From Candidatus Woesearchaeota archaeon (GTDB lineage Archaea; Nanobdellota; Nanobdellia; Woesearchaeales; JABGUJ01), in NCBI GenBank assembly GCA_018646625.1, contig JABGUJ010000001.1, positions 255,534-319,533 on the forward strand: a stretch of DNA of 64,000 nucleotides, read 5' to 3'. The notes beneath the pieces were generated by a model. That model ran no database searches. It worked only from the letters and a program-made list of their open reading frames with translations, and was not told the DNA's origin. Below, one piece after another: positions 47,076-55,400 of the stretch. A program made the position numbers and the translations under genes. Within the stretch, counting starts at the first letter, position 1. Each line of letters opens with the position of its first letter.

Positions 47076-48122
47076 ATGAAAGAAGTTCTACTCATTCCAA
47101 TTCTGATATTAGCAATAAAGTCGAGTTATGATCAACTAAAGAACAAAAAAACCACAAATAAAACAATAATCATGTGCGCCATACTCGCCATTGCAATATA
47201 CGTAATTCTACTAACAACTAATACAATTTCAGGTAAAGAATTAATAGAAACCGTCTTGCTTGCATCAATTTCTCTAATTATAGGATATGCGCTATGGCAT
47301 TACAAAATATGGAGCTCGAGTGATGCTAAAATTTTTGCAGCATACACTCTAATGATCCCCCAGATACTGCCAGGATTAACAACATTCCAGAGCGCAAGTG
47401 TCATAAGAATATTAGTAAATGCGGCCATACCGCTAGCTATAATATATTCAATAAAAATCATAGCTCAATCAGAAAACAAATCAAAAATAGATGCCATAAA
47501 AATGTTTTTCAACATAAAAATAATATCAGAATACCTTCTTTCAATATTTGGTATTGGGTGGGTAGTAAACATAATAATTGGACAAACCAACTTACAATCG
47601 AACATACTAACCTATGCCATCTTAATAACCGTCATATACAAGATACTTGACAAACTATGGAAAGAAGAAAAAAAGTACATCATAATTCTCTTAAGTATCT
47701 TAAGAGTCTTTTTTGAAACAAATTACATCCTATCTCTTAATTTTCTCACTACATACATACTATCCTCGTTAATTTTCCTTTTATTAATAATTGCAGTATC
47801 TCAACTAGGTAACAACCTAACAAAAAAGAAAAAGGTTTTTAGAATAAAAGAAGGAGACGTTGTGGTACAAGCCATAACTAAAAGTGGAGAACTCACTAGC
47901 AGAATAACATCTAAAAATAAAGAAGACTATGTGTTTATTCCAAAAAAAGAAGGCATAACCGAACATGATAGAAAACTCATACAAAGTGCCATAAATAAGA
48001 AGAATAACAAAATAACCATACTAGAAAAGATTGATTTTCGAATATATTTAGCAATAGGTGCACTATTAACTACGCAGATAGCTCAGAACATCATAACGAT
48101 GTTATCGTATATATTTATATAA
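47076..48122 (+). CDS. Archaeal prepilin/preflagellin peptidase-like aspartyl protease
   Basis: A 348-aa multi-pass membrane protein resembling the A24 family that cleaves class III signal peptides on the cytoplasmic side. The first catalytic Asp is in SSYDQLKNKKTTNK (D19), after the first helix. The second is in IWSSSDAKIFAAY (D83), where the usual GxGD-type motif has become SSSD. Further helices follow to about residue 260. A cytoplasmic piece (KEGDVVVQAIT..., then GITEHDRKL) resembles the C-terminal part of DPANN-type prepilin peptidases, and a last helix closes the protein. It stands divergent to the giant pilus-like cluster and next to the hxs genes. Its natural substrates are probably the many KKG/KA-Q type proteins in this window. 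Loss of the motif glycines needs checking but both Asp residues are present. Confidence 0.8.
   Translation: MKEVLLIPILILAIKSSYDQLKNKKTTNKTIIMCAILAIAIYVILLTTNTISGKELIETVLLASISLIIGYALWHYKIWSSSDAKIFAAYTLMIPQILPGLTTFQSASVIRILVNAAIPLAIIYSIKIIAQSENKSKIDAIKMFFNIKIISEYLLSIFGIGWVVNIIIGQTNLQSNILTYAILITVIYKILDKLWKEEKKYIIILLSILRVFFETNYILSLNFLTTYILSSLIFLLLIIAVSQLGNNLTKKKKVFRIKEGDVVVQAITKSGELTSRITSKNKEDYVFIPKKEGITEHDRKLIQSAINKKNNKITILEKIDFRIYLAIGALLTTQIAQNIITMLSYIFI
48108..48121 (+). promoter_or_regulatory. Internal TATA-like element before hxsD
   Basis: A TATATATTTATATAA-like run spans the end of the peptidase gene and is centred about 27 nt before the hxsD ATG at 48141. This would give a leaderless hxsD-hxsB transcript independent of the peptidase gene. 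The low-complexity AT sequence makes chance possible. Confidence 0.45.
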
Positions 48123-48140: not shown

Positions 48141-48482
48141 ATGATGACTGATGAAAATATTATAATAAAAATAAACCCTAAAATCTATTCATTAGATGTA
48201 ATAAAGGCCGCCGCACACATATTAACCACTGAGGCTGAGATACACCTAAACGGAGATCCTGAATCGGAAATAGAAGTTACTATTTCTCCAAAAAACAAAG
48301 AAGATAATAAAGAACTCAGAGAAAAATTTAATGAACAATTACTAAACTATTCAGTTTATAAAAGTCATTCTGAGAAAACAAAAGACATCAGAAACGCAAT
48401 CATTCAAAGGGTTCTTTTAACAAACGATTCAGAATTCATTGATGCTGTGATTGAAGAACTTAGAGCCCAAGATAAAAAATGA
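48141..48482 (+). CDS. hxsD: His-Xaa-Ser system protein HxsD
   Basis: A 113-aa cytoplasmic protein. The INPKIYSLDVIKAAAHIL start and the later FNEQLLNYSVYK, then EKTKDIRNAIIQRVLL, match what I know of HxsD, whose family has a YS.eaIkkAAy start and an LLNdY.lRe-type motif followed by IRd.Ii..al. HxsD is a small partner always found with radical SAM maturases in His-Xaa-Ser peptide systems; its exact job is not known but a peptide-recognition role is plausible. ATG at 48141 is followed directly by a second ATG at 48144. The stop overlaps the next gene's ATG (ATGA), so the two are translationally coupled. Homologues are mainly known from bacteria, so an archaeal copy is notable. Confidence 0.75.
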   Translation: MMTDENIIIKINPKIYSLDVIKAAAHILTTEAEIHLNGDPESEIEVTISPKNKEDNKELREKFNEQLLNYSVYKSHSEKTKDIRNAIIQRVLLTNDSEFIDAVIEELRAQDKK

Positions 48483-49876
48483 ACAAAGAAGGGCAAGAAA
48501 GAGAATATGCGGAGAATTTCTACAGAATAAATCGAATAGGGGATAAATTTCTGGCTTCTACAGACTCAGGAGACTGGACCATTCTAACAAAAACACAACT
48601 AGCTGAACTGCGCTCAGGCAATTTATCGGACAATACCTACAAAATTGCAAAAGAGACTGGCCTAATCATCACTGAAGAAAACTTACCTAACATTTTGGCC
48701 AACACCAGAAAAAGATTACAACCTTTGTACAGAAGCACAGGATTACATATAATTGTAACGACACTAAGGTGTAATCACAAATGTTTGTATTGCCACAGTC
48801 ATCCAAAAACAACACAAGATGAAGATTACGATTTAAAACATGAAACCGCAGAGAGAATAATAGACTTTATTTTTCAATGTCCCTCGAATAATCTTACAAT
48901 AGAATTTCAGGGGGGAGAATCATTACTAAATGTTGCGTCATTCAAAGATGTTGTTAATATGTGTAAAGAAAAGAATAAAGAGAAAAAAAGAAACTTAACG
49001 TTCGTTCTTGTAACTAATTTATCATTAATGAATGAAGAGACCGCACAATGGTTAAAAGACGAAAAGATAGTTATATGTACAAGTGTCGACGGTCCCGAGA
49101 TATTACACAATAAAAACAGACCAACAGAATCTAGTATAAACTCTCACCAAAAAACCATAGAATGGATGAAAAAACTAAAAATAGATTACGGAATAGATGT
49201 TGGTGCTCTAATGGTCACTACAAAATCCTCCCTGCCACATTGGAAAGAGATTATAGATGAATACAGAAACATAGGATTAAACACAATACAGTTGAAACCG
49301 TTAAACAAATTGGGATTTGCAGAAAACAAATGGAAAGAAGTAGGATATGAATTTGAAGAATTTGAAGAGTTTTGGAAAAAATCTATGGATTACATACTAG
49401 AATTAAACAAAAAAAACATAATCTTCAAAGAAAGGTATGTGGAAATAATATTAAAAAAATTATTTATGGACTCAGATCCTGGATTTACGGACTTTGCCAG
49501 TCCTTGCGGATTAATAACTGGACAATTAACATATGATTACAATGGAGATATTTTTTCTTGCGATGAAGGAAGAAATTTTGATTTGTTTAAATTAGGAAAC
49601 GTTAATAACACAAAATACATTGATGTTATTAGGTCAAAAGAATCCCAACAACTAGTAAATGCAAGCACAATTGAAAATTACATCTGCGACATGTGCGCAT
49701 ACAAGCCATTTTGTGGAACTTGCGTAGTTAATAATTATGCAAGAGAAGGAAACATAATCCCAAACATTCCATCGAACTTTCACCATAAACTGTTCAAAAT
49801 GATGTTTGATTGGGTATTTAATGTTCTAATAAACAGGCCAGAAGACGCCAAACTACTGTCTAGATGGTGTAATTAA
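48479..49876 (+). CDS. hxsB: Radical SAM/SPASM peptide maturase, HxsB-like
   Basis: A 465-aa enzyme. Residues 1-85 resemble the HxsB N-terminal domain (FYRINRIGDKFLASTDSGDW). The radical SAM domain begins with LHIIVTTLRCNHKCLYC, giving the CX3CX2C cluster at C98, C102 and C105, followed by the EFQGGESLL and VLVTNLSLM elements typical of peptide-modifying radical SAM enzymes. The C-terminal third has SPASM-type cysteines (SPCG, FSCDEG, ICDMCAYKPFCGTC) for auxiliary iron-sulfur clusters. Such enzymes use S-adenosylmethionine to cross-link or alter side chains in a ribosomal peptide. Coupled to hxsD upstream, with the secreted candidate substrate 41 bases downstream. The assignment to HxsB rather than another SPASM peptide maturase rests mainly on the HxsD neighbour and the N-terminus. 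Confidence 0.78.
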   Translation: MNKEGQEREYAENFYRINRIGDKFLASTDSGDWTILTKTQLAELRSGNLSDNTYKIAKETGLIITEENLPNILANTRKRLQPLYRSTGLHIIVTTLRCNHKCLYCHSHPKTTQDEDYDLKHETAERIIDFIFQCPSNNLTIEFQGGESLLNVASFKDVVNMCKEKNKEKKRNLTFVLVTNLSLMNEETAQWLKDEKIVICTSVDGPEILHNKNRPTESSINSHQKTIEWMKKLKIDYGIDVGALMVTTKSSLPHWKEIIDEYRNIGLNTIQLKPLNKLGFAENKWKEVGYEFEEFEEFWKKSMDYILELNKKNIIFKERYVEIILKKLFMDSDPGFTDFASPCGLITGQLTYDYNGDIFSCDEGRNFDLFKLGNVNNTKYIDVIRSKESQQLVNASTIENYICDMCAYKPFCGTCVVNNYAREGNIIPNIPSNFHHKLFKMMFDWVFNVLINRPEDAKLLSRWCN

Positions 49877-49883
49877 AAAGAAA

Positions 49884-49893
49884 GGTTTTAATA
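49884..49893 (+). promoter_or_regulatory. Promoter of the candidate Hxs substrate gene
   Basis: GGTTTTAATA, preceded by a purine-rich AAAGAAA stretch, is centred about 28 nt before the ATG at 49918, matching a leaderless archaeal promoter. A separate promoter would let the substrate be made in excess over its maturase, as is common for modified-peptide loci. Confidence 0.55.
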
Positions 49894-49917
49894 GTAGATA
49901 AAACCAACTTATAGACT

Positions 49918-50514
49918 ATGAAAAAGAGGATCTCAGATTTTCTACTTGATAAAGATGAGCAACCTAGAGCTCCAGTTGGAAAAGTTCTAATATATTCTTT
50001 AATGGGTGTTGCATCAGGAATTGTAGCAAGCCAAGTTGTAAATGCGGATTCAGGTCATCATAGCGCAAATATTCATTGTAGCGGCCCAGACATAGTTCCA
50101 GAACAGTACGAACTTGAACCAGGATCAACTTTTCTTAAGTTCTTATCTCCAGAAGATGGAAAAATGGACGTAGGTGGAAATTGTGGACAAGATTGTTGGG
50201 CGGCTAATTGTTGTTCAACAAAGGTTGAATGGGGAGATCCCGCCGGGAGCAAAAGTACAGATTGGATAGGTGGCTGGAGCGGATGGAAGAATAACTGTTT
50301 TAGATGGGGTAACCAAGACATTCAAGTACTCTCCCACAACAACAATATTCTTCTAAGAGGAGCAAGTCTAAAAATAATTGGAGAACACGCACACTCAATA
50401 AACGTGCTTCAAACACAAGTAAAAGCAACCGATAATACTGAATGCATGAGTGACGGAAGCTGCGCAACAGCCAGAAATGGGGCATGCTTAGATAGTGGCT
50501 ACCACAGTTGTTAA
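49918..50514 (+). CDS. Secreted candidate substrate of the Hxs system (HxsA-like)
   Basis: A 198-aa protein starting MKKRISDFLLDKDEQP. A charged leader of about 20 residues precedes a hydrophobic segment (about 22-42) ending in VVNA, so it has both a possible recognition leader and an export signal. Right after the predicted cleavage come GHHS and HCSG, two His-Xaa-Ser triplets at residues 47-49 and 53-55. Later there are HAHS, Cys-rich CGQDCWAANCC, a Trp/Gly-rich GGWSGWKNNCFRW segment and a C-terminal GYHSC. This is not the long perfect HXS repeat of classical HxsA. The case for it as substrate is position, own promoter, leader shape and His/Ser/Cys clusters. It could instead be an unrelated secreted protein. 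Confidence 0.6.
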   Translation: MKKRISDFLLDKDEQPRAPVGKVLIYSLMGVASGIVASQVVNADSGHHSANIHCSGPDIVPEQYELEPGSTFLKFLSPEDGKMDVGGNCGQDCWAANCCSTKVEWGDPAGSKSTDWIGGWSGWKNNCFRWGNQDIQVLSHNNNILLRGASLKIIGEHAHSINVLQTQVKATDNTECMSDGSCATARNGACLDSGYHSC

Positions 50515-51557
50515 TTTGAGTAAGAAAATTTTTCTAAATAATAAACATACAAATTTTTTCGAATTTTCTCATTAGACATCATAATCTTTAATGCATAAGG
50601 GGGAAATACAGAAGAGATCTTACCAAGAAATGAAGAATCATCGGAACAAAAAGGATCCTCGGTACTAAAATCCACCACATCCTCGCAAGGAAACTTATCC
50701 TGTTCAGAGGTGAAAAACATACACAAAGATTTTTCAAATCCTAAATAATCAGAGCAAGGATTTTCATATCCGAACGAAGAATAACCCGCTACTTTGCAAC
50801 CCATTTCAAAAGCACTATCAAAATAAAACTCATAAGAAGATGGCACAAAATCACATTGACGATTCAAAGATTTCGAATATAAAATACAAGGCAAAGTATT
50901 GGAATTTGTCCCACAGTAATCCCCTTGCTCAGACAAATCATAAAACAAACATTCATCAGGATCGCAAGATTCTCTCTCACCTAAAGACCACATATACGAA
51001 TTACATAACATAAGAGTCATTGAATCAGTAAACTCACCACAATCAGTTAAATCATTTGATACAATATCATAACTCAGCTCACACTTTTGGGAATCCCCGC
51101 AAGCTGAAAGATCATCAGAATCTATAACACGCTTAAACATAAAATCCTCACATTCGTGAACATCGTCTTCATCTCGACAATCATGGTAATTTGAAGGAAC
51201 TGCCGGAACAAATGTACAGGCATCCAGAGAGTCTCCAACTAATGCAGCATAAACACAACCATCTGATTCCCATATTTTCTCAGCACAAGCATAATAGTAA
51301 TTATGTCCCTTAATACGTTTGCAAAAAGACGCATCTCCTGATTGTTTAGCTAGTTTAAGAAAACATACGTCAGAATCAGGCAACCCTTCGCAAGATTCTA
51401 CAGTTAATTCATCTGAAACAATCTTATCGGAAATATAATCTAAAGGTGAAGAAACAAACTCACCAGAATCTGAAGTTGGCCAAAAATAAACAGCTGCAAG
51501 AACAACAAGTACTAAAACCGATACAAGAGATAAAATCAACTTCAGAGCATTCTTCAT
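50511..51557 (-). CDS. Membrane-anchored Cys-rich extracytoplasmic protein, 348 aa
   Basis: Starts MKNALKLILSLVSVLVLVV; one N-terminal helix (about residues 5-27) and then an exterior domain of about 320 residues. Short motifs recur about every 25-35 residues, typically a Cys-containing DxCxFL or LxxCxFV-like element, such as DSDVCFLKLAKQSGDASFC, GCVYAAL, ECLFYDL, LPCILYSKS and SLCMFF. They suggest helical hairpins pinned by disulfides, similar to Sel1- or TPR-like solenoids. The gene's 3' end overlaps that of the candidate Hxs substrate by 4 bases and its leaderless promoter faces the B12-radical SAM genes. Whether it belongs to the Hxs locus or to the surface apparatus is open. Family not recognised. 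Confidence 0.75.
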   Translation of the reverse strand: MKNALKLILSLVSVLVLVVLAAVYFWPTSDSGEFVSSPLDYISDKIVSDELTVESCEGLPDSDVCFLKLAKQSGDASFCKRIKGHNYYYACAEKIWESDGCVYAALVGDSLDACTFVPAVPSNYHDCRDEDDVHECEDFMFKRVIDSDDLSACGDSQKCELSYDIVSNDLTDCGEFTDSMTLMLCNSYMWSLGERESCDPDECLFYDLSEQGDYCGTNSNTLPCILYSKSLNRQCDFVPSSYEFYFDSAFEMGCKVAGYSSFGYENPCSDYLGFEKSLCMFFTSEQDKFPCEDVVDFSTEDPFCSDDSSFLGKISSVFPPYALKIMMSNEKIRKNLYVYYLEKFSYSN

Positions 51558-51693: not shown

Positions 51694-53010
51694 ATGAAGA
51701 TATATTATATTGAAGAAGACATTCTAAAATACCTTCTTAGCTACGTAGAAACATATTGTAAAACAGAGATTGAAGCAATATCTCTAAACAATTGCAAAAC
51801 GGATGAAATAGAAAACTCAGAGAAAAACTTGATCTTAATATCTAGCACATCTTTATATGACATGAACAGGACGCACGAAGTTCTTAAGAAAATAAAAATT
51901 CAATTTCCAGAAACAAAAATAAGAATAATTCTGGGCGGATCTATGCACTATATCTTGAACAATGAAGATTTTTTAAACCACTACACGCAAGCCAGCCATA
52001 TTTGTGTTGGAAAAGGTGAAGAATTTCTTAGAACTTTAATTGATAAGAAAGTTCCAAAAGGCGTACATTTCGCAGAAGACTTCGGGAACATCAAACCATA
52101 CAGAATAAACAAAAAGTACAGAATAGAAAAAGAAGTAAAAATAACATTTAATGACAACAGGTGTGACTGGCAGAAATGCCTATTCTGTCATCACCAAACA
52201 AGACATGTTTGTCCAATAAATACTGCAGAGAAAATTGCAGAAGATGTAGAATATTACATAAAAGAGTGCAACTACAAACACTTTTACTTTTATGATAATA
52301 ACATGAATCCTCATGTGCTGAACAAATTCCTCAAGATTCTTCTAGAAAAAGGACTAAACAAATACTCCCCCACATTTTATTTATTTGGACTTAGAGTGGA
52401 TTCTCAATTTGAGGTACTTACTGAAATTTTAGAACAATGGAAACCGTCTCCAATCGTTGGAGGATCGTGGGGCTTAGAATTCTATGATCAAGAAATATTA
52501 GATTTATATAATAAGAATACTAAACTAAAGCAAATAGATAACGCACTTGCTTTTTTTCATAAATACGGCATAGCTAACGACGCTTATCTTCTGTTGGGTT
52601 TACCTGGAGTAAACAACAAACACATAGAACATTTCAAAGAATTTATAGACCATAAAAGTTACTTGGTTCGCGATTATAGAGTTTCATTTTTTCTATTAAA
52701 TCCCTTCATAAGAATGTACGAAGATAAAGAAAAATTCAAAATGCATGAAAAAAACTATTTAACATTACAAGACTTCTTCCTAGATAAAATAAACGCCCCA
52801 AAAATAAGAACCATATTCAAAAATTTCGATTCATGGGATGAAGATTTAGGACGTTATGTTGATAGAGGAGAAACTCTCAGAAAATATTTCCCCATATTAA
52901 AACATAAAAAAATGAAATTTCACCCCAATATGTTTTTATTAGATGATCACTCTTGCAATCTACTAACATCCTTAAGATTATTGGGAGAAAAAAGTGAGGA
53001 AAAGTCATGA
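51694..53010 (+). CDS. Radical SAM enzyme with degenerate B12-binding-like N-terminus
   Basis: A 438-aa protein. Residues 1-130 have the alternating strand/helix pattern of a cobalamin-binding domain (LILISSTS, IRIILGGSMHYI, HICVGKGEEFL) but lack the DxHxxG motif that ligates cobalamin from below. The radical SAM cluster motif is CDWQKCLFC at about residues 157-165, a CX4CX2C spacing seen in some B12-type radical SAM families instead of CX3CX2C. Later WGLEFYDQEIL and LLGLPGVN match the second half of the barrel in this superfamily. The end overlaps the next gene by 4 bases (ATGA), so they are coupled. The substrate is unknown; proximity to the Hxs genes makes a peptide or surface-glycan/lipid substrate possible, without proof. 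Confidence 0.75.
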   Translation: MKIYYIEEDILKYLLSYVETYCKTEIEAISLNNCKTDEIENSEKNLILISSTSLYDMNRTHEVLKKIKIQFPETKIRIILGGSMHYILNNEDFLNHYTQASHICVGKGEEFLRTLIDKKVPKGVHFAEDFGNIKPYRINKKYRIEKEVKITFNDNRCDWQKCLFCHHQTRHVCPINTAEKIAEDVEYYIKECNYKHFYFYDNNMNPHVLNKFLKILLEKGLNKYSPTFYLFGLRVDSQFEVLTEILEQWKPSPIVGGSWGLEFYDQEILDLYNKNTKLKQIDNALAFFHKYGIANDAYLLLGLPGVNNKHIEHFKEFIDHKSYLVRDYRVSFFLLNPFIRMYEDKEKFKMHEKNYLTLQDFFLDKINAPKIRTIFKNFDSWDEDLGRYVDRGETLRKYFPILKHKKMKFHPNMFLLDDHSCNLLTSLRLLGEKSEEKS

Positions 53011-54530
53011 GAGTTACATTCATACATGAATCAAAAAGCGCAGATGGCCCTGACATCACACTAATACCTATTGGATTAGTTGGTTTAGCGGATTATATTG
53101 CAAAACAAGAGAATAAAGTTGAAATTCTACATCACAAAAGTGAACAAGTTATAAACCCAGAATTTAATCTTTCAGAATATCTCAAACAACAACAAACTGA
53201 TGCTGTTTGCTTAGATTTACACTGGCACTTACAAGCAGCAGACGTCATAAACACTATCAAAGAACTAAAAGCAAACAACCCAACACTCATCACAATATTA
53301 GGTGGATTAACAGCGAGTTTCTTTGCAGAAGAGATCATTACAAATCATAAAGAAGTAGATTACGTAATAAAAGGAGATGGAGAAGAACCATTAGCTAAAC
53401 TTCTCAAAGCCATACAAGAAAAAAGTCCCTTAGAACAGGTCCCAAATCTAACGTGGAGAATAAACAAAAAAACTATAACAAATCCTCAAACATTCACAAT
53501 AAAAGAAGAAATGATTAACAAACTAAATTTTACAAACTTCGACTTAATAAAAAATAAAGAATTCTATCTCAGACTACAACCAAGCGAAGAAAAATGCCTT
53601 AATTGCAAAAAAGAATGCGATAAAAAAAGTTTCTACTTCACAGTTGGAAGAGGATGTCCGGTAGACTGCTCATTCTGCGGCGGATCAAAAACATCTCAAA
53701 AATTAATAAACAACAGAGATACTCCAATAAACTTAGATCCAAAAAAAGCAGTAGAAGAATTAAAAAAAGCAAAAGAAAATCATGGATTAGATATTTGGTA
53801 TGCTTGCTATGATCCATTTCCAAGATCAAAGTCATACTTAGAAATATTCAAAGAAATAAGAAAACAAAAAATAGACCTGGGATTAAGATTTGAATCTTGG
53901 GCCTTGCCAACAACGGAGTTCATAGACGAATTCAAGAAAACCTTCGATCCAACCAAATCTGAAATAATATTAAGTCCAGAAAGCGGATCAGAAAAAGTAC
54001 GACAAAAAAACAAAGGATACAATTACTCAAATACAGAACTTCTAGAAACATTAGAATACATAGAATCAAAGGGATTAAGAAGCTGTGTATACTTCACTAC
54101 TGGCTTGCCTTTTGAGAAAAAAGAAGACGCACTAAAAAGTTTAGCACTAATAAATTTCATAAGAACTAATTTCAACAAAACTAAAATACTGACTGCAGCA
54201 ATAATAATGGAACCTGGATCTCCTTGGTTTTTAGATCCCGAGAAATATGGAATAAAAACCAAATTAAAAACATTTTCAGATTATCTTAATTTTCACGCAG
54301 GAGGATTCAGCGTAGGTTATGAAACAGAGCACATGAAAGAGCTAGAAATTAGAGATTTTATAGGATTAATGGATGCTGAAGAGAAATGCGTTTATCCAGA
54401 ATCTAACTTTCTGAAAACGCTTCTTAAAACTTGTTTTTCAATAGAACATCATAAAACAGATCAACTACACGCCTTATGCAGTACGTGCAAAAACTATAGA
54501 GAGTGTTTCCCTTCCTTATTCATAAAGTAA
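53007..54530 (+). CDS. B12-binding-domain radical SAM enzyme
   Basis: A 507-aa protein. Residues 1-140 form a cobalamin-binding-like domain (GLVGLADYIAKQ, LITILGGLTASFF, DYVIKGDGEEPL), again without a clear DxHxxG. An inserted CLNCKKEC pair may form a small metal site. The radical SAM motif is GRGCPVDCSFCGG, a canonical CX3CX2C (about residues 217-224), followed by ILSPESGSEKVR and YFTTGLPFEKKED, typical of this superfamily. C-terminal CSTCKNYREC could hold an auxiliary cluster. It is translationally coupled to the previous radical SAM gene, suggesting consecutive steps on one substrate. Functions in this family include methyl transfer and ring or chain rearrangement; the specific reaction cannot be read from sequence. 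Confidence 0.8.
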   Translation: MRVTFIHESKSADGPDITLIPIGLVGLADYIAKQENKVEILHHKSEQVINPEFNLSEYLKQQQTDAVCLDLHWHLQAADVINTIKELKANNPTLITILGGLTASFFAEEIITNHKEVDYVIKGDGEEPLAKLLKAIQEKSPLEQVPNLTWRINKKTITNPQTFTIKEEMINKLNFTNFDLIKNKEFYLRLQPSEEKCLNCKKECDKKSFYFTVGRGCPVDCSFCGGSKTSQKLINNRDTPINLDPKKAVEELKKAKENHGLDIWYACYDPFPRSKSYLEIFKEIRKQKIDLGLRFESWALPTTEFIDEFKKTFDPTKSEIILSPESGSEKVRQKNKGYNYSNTELLETLEYIESKGLRSCVYFTTGLPFEKKEDALKSLALINFIRTNFNKTKILTAAIIMEPGSPWFLDPEKYGIKTKLKTFSDYLNFHAGGFSVGYETEHMKELEIRDFIGLMDAEEKCVYPESNFLKTLLKTCFSIEHHKTDQLHALCSTCKNYRECFPSLFIK

Positions 54531-54904: not shown

Positions 54905-54912
54905 CTTATAAA
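54905..54912 (-). promoter_or_regulatory. TATA box of the small membrane protein gene
   Basis: TTTATAAG on the minus strand, centred 27 nt before the ATG at 54881 and overlapping the stop codon of the RNase P gene. Confidence 0.6.
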
Positions 54913-55400
54913 CTTTCCTCTAAATTTATCATCTCAAACCACTCATCAGCAAGACTAACCCAACAACACTCAACCTTATACTTTTTACAAAGCCTAATAT
55001 TCTGCTCAATTCTGCCCAACAACTGAGCTCTACGAACACCTTTAGCATGTAGAACAGCACCAAAATCAAAACCAATCATAGTATTTGCATCTCGAGCCAC
55101 TTTACACATGATTTGATTAAGCCCTGAATAACGATGATGCACCCCATCTTTACGAGCAACACCCTCTAATCCATAAACTAAATCAACATCTCTGTTTTGC
55201 AACCATTTTCGATCATTAACACCATCTGCTTTTTTAATTATAAACGAAGCTTTGCGCTCGCCAGCTTTAATCATCTTAATCTTATCGGACTTCAACTCAA
55301 AATCACCAACAATATACAAAGTATCAATACCTAAACGCAAAGCTATCTCTTCAAACTTAACAAGAGCCTTAGCATCCTTTGGACATATTACATCAAACAT
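54906..55400 (-). CDS. rnp3: Ribonuclease P protein component 3 (p30/Rpp30)
   Basis: A 164-aa protein of the RNase P p30 family, a PHP-like TIM barrel that binds the RNase P RNA with Pop5 and helps trim the 5' end of pre-tRNA in the cytoplasm. Recognisable elements are MFDVICPK at the start, LVYGLEGVARKDGVHHRYSG in the middle, then LNQIMCKVARDANTMIGFDF and LLGRIEQNIRLCKKYKV. The usual archaeal protein is somewhat longer (roughly 200-230 aa), so this is a reduced version, as expected in small-genome archaea. The start at 55400 is supported by a TATA-like element 26 nt upstream inside the end of iscU. Confidence 0.85.
   Translation of the reverse strand: MFDVICPKDAKALVKFEEIALRLGIDTLYIVGDFELKSDKIKMIKAGERKASFIIKKADGVNDRKWLQNRDVDLVYGLEGVARKDGVHHRYSGLNQIMCKVARDANTMIGFDFGAVLHAKGVRRAQLLGRIEQNIRLCKKYKVECCWVSLADEWFEMINLEESL

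Follow-up and report, generated by a model that had tools for sequence, protein, structure and literature searches.

An archaeal Hxs-type operon with a repeat-poor candidate substrate and a linked homologue of A24 prepilin peptidases

A stretch of 64,000 nucleotides from a Candidatus Woesearchaeota archaeon (the window) carries what is, with good confidence, an archaeal operon of the known His-Xaa-Ser (Hxs) type for peptide modification, in which the gene for a homologue of A24 proteases is followed by hxsD, hxsB and the gene for a 198-aa protein that is very probably an HxsA-type substrate (Table 1). The genome that holds the locus measures 1.57 Mb, and the closest named relative found is an Aenigmatarchaeota contig, at 41% identity. 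A preliminary description of the same DNA had recognised three open reading frames of 113, 465 and 198 aa, all of which lie on the forward strand where it placed them, and the coupling of hxsD to hxsB by an ATGA, in which the ATG of hxsB overlaps the upstream TGA, is likewise present; the start of the operon, however, had been set too late, and the 348-aa gene that ends 18 nt ahead of hxsD had been overlooked. A TATA-like AAAGGTTTTAATAG, located by eye approximately 27 nt ahead of the substrate ATG, is a plausible candidate for a promoter belonging to the substrate gene itself.

Table 1. Features of the hxs locus, in window coordinates
Feature	Coordinates	Strand	Remarks
A24 (GxGD) prepilin-peptidase homologue, hxs-linked, 348-aa membrane protein	47076..48122	+	first operon gene
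hxsD, 113 aa	48141..48482	+	TIGR03976, 55.3 bits (cut-off 50)
hxsB, 465-aa radical SAM/SPASM maturase	48479..49876	+	TIGR03978, 442.7 bits (cut-off 370)
Intergenic gap, 41 nt	49877..49917	.	TATA-like AAAGGTTTTAATAG, candidate promoter of the substrate gene, by eye
Very probable HxsA-type substrate, 198 aa, repeat-poor, 10 Cys	49918..50514	+	adjoins hxsB; leader, core motif, clade of relatives
Leader recognition segment MKKRISDFLLDKD, residues 1-13	49918..49956	+	similarity to L079 leader; NF038309 match
GK...VVNA hydrophobic stretch	49978..50046	+	candidate A24 site G21|K22; candidate signal-peptidase site after VNA (residue 43)
Core motif HNNNILLRGASLKIIGEHAH, residues 140-159	50335..50394	+	pattern common to 11/26 substrates
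Cys-rich single-TM protein, convergent with the substrate gene	50511..51557	-	possible clade-specific partner

In HMM searches the 113-aa and 465-aa proteins scored above the curated cut-offs of the HxsD and HxsB models, the latter over residues 14-463, so both families named in the preliminary description are confirmed, and the lack of model hits that would have spoken against it did not occur. HxsB possesses a CX3CX2C motif (CNHKCLYC) and radical SAM (PF04055) and SPASM (PF13186) domains above Pfam gathering scores, and the runner-up model for the protein is PapB, at 131.9 bits. HxsC (TIGR03977) was found above its cut-off in none of the 32 genomes with hxsB, and its best match in the window's genome is HxsB itself. 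A second, smaller HxsD-like gene (NF038315, HxsD_rel) is present at 33 of the 35 hxs loci, including that of the sister genome G154, and is missing from one other locus and from the window, where it was found neither between hxsD and hxsB nor in the rest of the genome.

An HxsD-like domain is fused to an HxsA-type leader in two related genomes (G173 and G103), suggesting that HxsD handles the leader and supporting a role for HxsD that acts on it. Fusions of this kind were seen at L156:1-1944 (-) and L160:1333-1914 (-), and a Hint/intein-like domain follows the leader-bearing part in L156 and in L154 (L154:937-1620 (-)); these three belong to genomes of family f33 that lack HxsB above the cut-off, yet possess leader-bearing proteins. 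The idea that HxsD is a PqqD-like leader-binding domain (a RiPP recognition element) found no support, as the best Foldseek matches of its predicted fold are mostly RPB11-like (at a weak E of 0.03-0.1) and no PqqD appears among the matches listed for the HxsD model, although this comparison is a weak test.

The family to which the 348-aa protein belongs is homologous, by sequence, to the A24 prepilin peptidases. Its members occur at 26 of the 35 hxs loci (profile >50 bits; window counted), at 20 of which, judged by locus coordinates, the gene lies no more than 100 nt upstream of hxsD; in genome G014 it sits beside the substrate gene on a contig away from hxsB. Peptidase_A24 (PF01478) matches 24 of 31 members, several of them above the gathering score (L084, L080 and L104, for example), and Arc_PepC (PF06819), the archaeal A24 C-terminal domain, matches 20 of 31. 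An alignment of the 31 sequences exhibits invariant D83 and K85 and a nearly invariant D20, and the window's protein keeps Asp20, Asp83 and Lys85. The spacing of the Asp pair resembles that of the archaeal prepilin peptidases. Two such residues are the rule for these enzymes, and the charged residue and Gly that precede the hydrophobic stretch of the hxs leaders agree with the processing rule for archaeal prepilins (PMC4371748).

The window's own copy is best regarded as a putative, divergent protease. A search of the 348-aa protein against Pfam gave no match at E 0.1, and the whole-genome search gave 14.7 bits to PF01478 against a gathering score of 26.5. At the GxGD position SSSD replaces the AGD of its relatives, so that the Gly is lost, and both putative catalytic Asp residues are present. 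The AlphaFold model has a pLDDT of 87.3, and a Foldseek comparison of this model with the PDB returned nothing of any kind better than E 0.6, and no solved A24 peptidase. Among bacteria, A24-family genes lie near hxsB at 16 of 37 hxs loci, and no A24 homologue was found in a plasmid search with the window's protein. Taken across loci, gene linkage makes a strong case that the A24 homologue is part of the Hxs pathway and, together with the leader Gly, a moderate one that it cuts the substrate leader. Nothing joining a prepilin peptidase, radical SAM and a RiPP was found in the open-licence literature, subscription papers lying outside the search, and the absence of an earlier description of an A24-like partner of the Hxs system is stated with this reserve.

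The case for the 198-aa protein as the substrate begins with its position directly after hxsB and with its N-terminus. The leader recognition segment MKKRISDFLLDKD is identical at 8 of 13 positions to LKKRINDFLIDEE, the leader of the L079 substrate, and residues 1-55 match the HxsA3 model NF038309 weakly, at 14.0 bits (E 0.033 corrected for 18,950 models), although the family matched is the one to be expected; the curated cut-off of this model is 65 bits, which clear relatives also fail to reach. In related genomes the gene adjoining hxsB often encodes a short leader-bearing protein, with HxS arrays in about half; its leader has the pattern PKIKKKIxxFLxxEEGKISK and leads into a hydrophobic stretch. 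A leader profile at E<1e-6 finds such leaders in about 30 of 371 genomes, most of them HxsB-bearing. The preliminary description had suggested looking in related genomes for a downstream protein with a shared leader, and such proteins are often encoded beside hxsB. The window's own leader is divergent and the profile misses it: the A2 leader profile did not recover the 198-aa protein from the window's genome at E 0.1, and a seed leader HMM gave it E 1.4.

Compared with its relatives, the window's leader has a 7-residue insertion between DKD and the GK that corresponds to their conserved G|K. A Gly ahead of the hydrophobic stretch, usually after a charged residue, is invariant among the leaders, and most of them, the window's included (its stretch ends in VVNA), close past this stretch with an A-x-A-like, plausible signal-peptidase-I site; the A24 and signal-peptidase cut sites in this region are both candidates read from sequence. 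A full-length search with the 198-aa protein found no homologue in 353 genomes of the order, and a match at E 4.6e-5 from this search was discarded as a frame interrupted by stops in unrelated DNA.

The 198-aa protein contains exactly two HxS triplets (HHS and HCS), a C-terminal HSC, 10 Cys and 7 His; its longest HxS run is 1, and tandem His-Xaa-Ser repeats are not present. The preliminary description saw in it a new kind of substrate and stressed these triplets. It is indeed repeat-poor, but it is not unique: no run of two HxS occurs in 14 of 26 substrates, the window's among them, the substrates of L101 and L104 contain no HxS and several others contain one, and a core motif is shared. The triplets are probably not the key feature, the conserved element being HxNx[LIVM]x[LIVM]-x8-GxHxH. 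In its general form, HxNx[LIVM]x[LIVM]-x8-[GASTLM]xHx[HN], this motif is present in 11 of the 26 substrates, both repeat-bearing and repeat-free, and the window's version, HNNNILLRGASLKIIGEHAH, has the exact x8 spacing.

When the sequence of the 198-aa protein was shuffled 200,000 times, 4 of the products fitted the core pattern, a frequency that is nominal because the pattern was widened and fixed after the sequences had been viewed. Nine further matches occur in 6,840 ORFs, and the eight that were printed are copies of the same genes in overlapping loci. An independent check is provided by the G014 substrate, which was first seen after the motif had been fixed and which matches it, as HANDIKLEVDEGVVVGTHYH, with the same spacing. 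Some strong-leader relatives have no tight match. A core HMM built without the window did not detect the 198-aa protein, and the motif was therefore judged as a pattern, against shuffles and background. Since the motif is common to repeat-bearing and repeat-free substrates, the tail of HxS repeats appears to be optional. Two adjacent substrates of genome G079 (L159:566-1632 (-)) carry very long arrays that mix HxS with HxT (HATHGTH), showing that the third position of the array varies, and the substrate at L104:5615-5947 (-), which is without any HxS, possesses a tail, THEHSTTSSSSSTSSTSTSY, that resembles an array with its His substituted.

On a phylogenetic tree of HxsB the window pairs with G154 (support 99/94) within a clade of five genomes (support 100/100) that also includes G014, G191 and G198. 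The substrates of this clade measure 198, 258, 124 (G014), 192 and 161 aa, and all five lack tandem HxS and possess 5 to 11 cysteines; the loss of repeats extends past the clade to the wider substrate set. In G154 the protein encoded beside hxsB has a strong leader (E 3.9e-14) and a similar HNNN...H.H core. Homologues of the Cys-rich single-TM protein encoded convergently with the window's substrate immediately adjoin the substrate genes at L080, L084 and L090 (genomes G191, G198 and G154), which makes it, with moderate confidence, a possible clade-specific partner. As an Hxs-specific component it was rejected, its wider family having matches in 253 of 371 genomes and being too widespread.

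These observations can be joined into a proposed pathway. HxsD would hold the leader (KKRISDFLLD...) of the 198-aa precursor, to which most relatives would add the second, smaller HxsD-like protein; the radical SAM/SPASM enzyme HxsB would modify the core, most likely around HxNxLxL-x8-GxHxH and perhaps at cysteines; export would follow, with the hydrophobic segment of the precursor as its route; and, in the manner of prepilin peptidases, the A24 homologue would cut off the cytoplasmic leader that precedes this segment. Leader capture and core modification draw on family knowledge, linkage and the fusions, and leader cutting on gene linkage and on the invariant Gly that fits the archaeal prepilin rule. 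Taken in full, the pathway would yield radical-SAM-modified, pilin-like surface proteins, altered by HxsB in a conserved core of His, Asn and Leu and freed of their leader at an EEG|K-type site, ahead of the hydrophobic helix, by a prepilin-peptidase paralogue reserved for this task, a reading that is tentative and rather doubtful as a whole.

For its last step there is a real alternative, for which the chances are nearly even: that the operon is an Hxs operon whose A24 homologue is degenerate or acts separately, and that signal peptidase I cuts the substrate after VNA. With the A-x-A-like site past the hydrophobic stretch in most leaders, that of the window among them, no cutting by an A24 enzyme would be needed; the GxGD Gly is lost from the window's homologue, which scores poorly against PF01478, a canonical A24 peptidase is encoded separately on C1 of the same genome, and the three plasmid hxs loci read lack an A24 gene. 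Against this, both putative catalytic Asp residues are kept in a family where D83/K85 are invariant over 31 sequences, the leader Gly, usually after a charged residue, matches the archaeal prepilin processing rule (PMC4371748), and the A24 gene is retained beside hxsD or beside the substrate.

The identity of the substrate and the site of modification can each be read otherwise. It is quite improbable that hxsB has the 198-aa protein, as an unrelated secreted product, for a neighbour by chance and that the true substrate is encoded at another place in the genome, as might be thought from its lack of a full-length relative in the order, from the failure of the leader profile on it and from the substrate gene being apart from hxsB in some relatives, because the protein combines an HxsA3 match, a leader segment and an exact-spacing motif with adjacency to hxsB, a protein of this kind is also encoded beside hxsB in the sister genome G154, and the leader profile found no other leader-bearing protein in G000. 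It is also unlikely that the substrate is a degenerate one on which classical Hxs chemistry acts, with modification restricted to the HHS and HCS that follow the signal peptide: both triplets are present and HxsB is a bona fide member of its family, but the L101 and L104 substrates do without HxS, several have one, and HxNxLxL-x8-GxHxH is the conserved element, which argues that HxS is unlikely to be the sole acceptor in the family.

Several features of the surroundings were recorded alongside the operon. A homologue of RNase P p30 is encoded at 54906-55400 (-) of the window (PF01876 E 2.3e-5, below gathering), and its homologues at 10 of the related loci, in many cases adjoining the A24 gene, suggest that hxs operons may favour this spot. 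Two more radical SAM genes lie downstream at 51694-53010 and 53007-54530 (+), the product of the latter being B12-binding and nearest to TIGR04190 (216.9 bits against a cut-off of 500), and the hxs loci of relatives often have additional radical SAM genes beside them. On the other side, 8972-46833 (-) encodes a series of very large proteins predicted to be secreted (1362, 1904, 5002, 1761 and 2110 aa), which have almost no relatives at other hxs loci.

Hxs systems are present in 32 of 371 sampled genomes of the archaeal phylum, about a tenth, and no report on the chemistry of Hxs maturation was found in the open-licence literature, which holds little on Hxs. Where an HxS array offers dozens of identical triplets as likely sites of modification, the repeat-free substrates leave a single short conserved segment, in which the reaction should be easier to place. 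A route of precursor processing and export is suggested by the A24 link, as is a role for HxsD by the HxsD-leader fusions; if the proposal is true, a RiPP-type modification would be joined to processing of the type IV pilin type.

Among known systems, PapB and the SCIFF maturase are SPASM radical SAM RiPP maturases of the same superfamily as the 465-aa protein, which falls far below their cut-offs. PibD, FlaK and EppA, archaeal prepilin/preflagellin peptidases of the A24 family, exhibit the same Asp pair approximately 60 residues apart and the D-x-K, and most members of the hxs-linked family possess the archaeal A24 C-terminal domain; unlike them, the hxs family is linked to radical SAM genes and not to pilus genes, and the window's member lies below the Pfam cut-off and has no structural match found. 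With bacterial Hxs (HxsA2/HxsA3/HxsA4, HxsB, HxsC and HxsD; NCBIfam) the window shares the D-B order, HxsB and HxsD above their cut-offs and an HxsA3-like leader. The loci of Elusimicrobia and Schekmanbacteria (HxsA4/HxsA3-like) share the SEEGK leader, and an HxNx[FL] element is present in many of their substrates, which, unlike the window's, carry long HGSHGS arrays; the bacterial loci that show an A24 gene have no HxS-array gene within the fetched stretch. On three bacterial plasmid hxs loci hxsC is present and the A24 gene absent, whereas the window has no HxsC, no tandem HxS array and an A24 homologue in the operon. The real departures from the described bacterial layout are the missing HxsC, the linked A24 homologue and a clade with repeat-poor, Cys-containing substrates.
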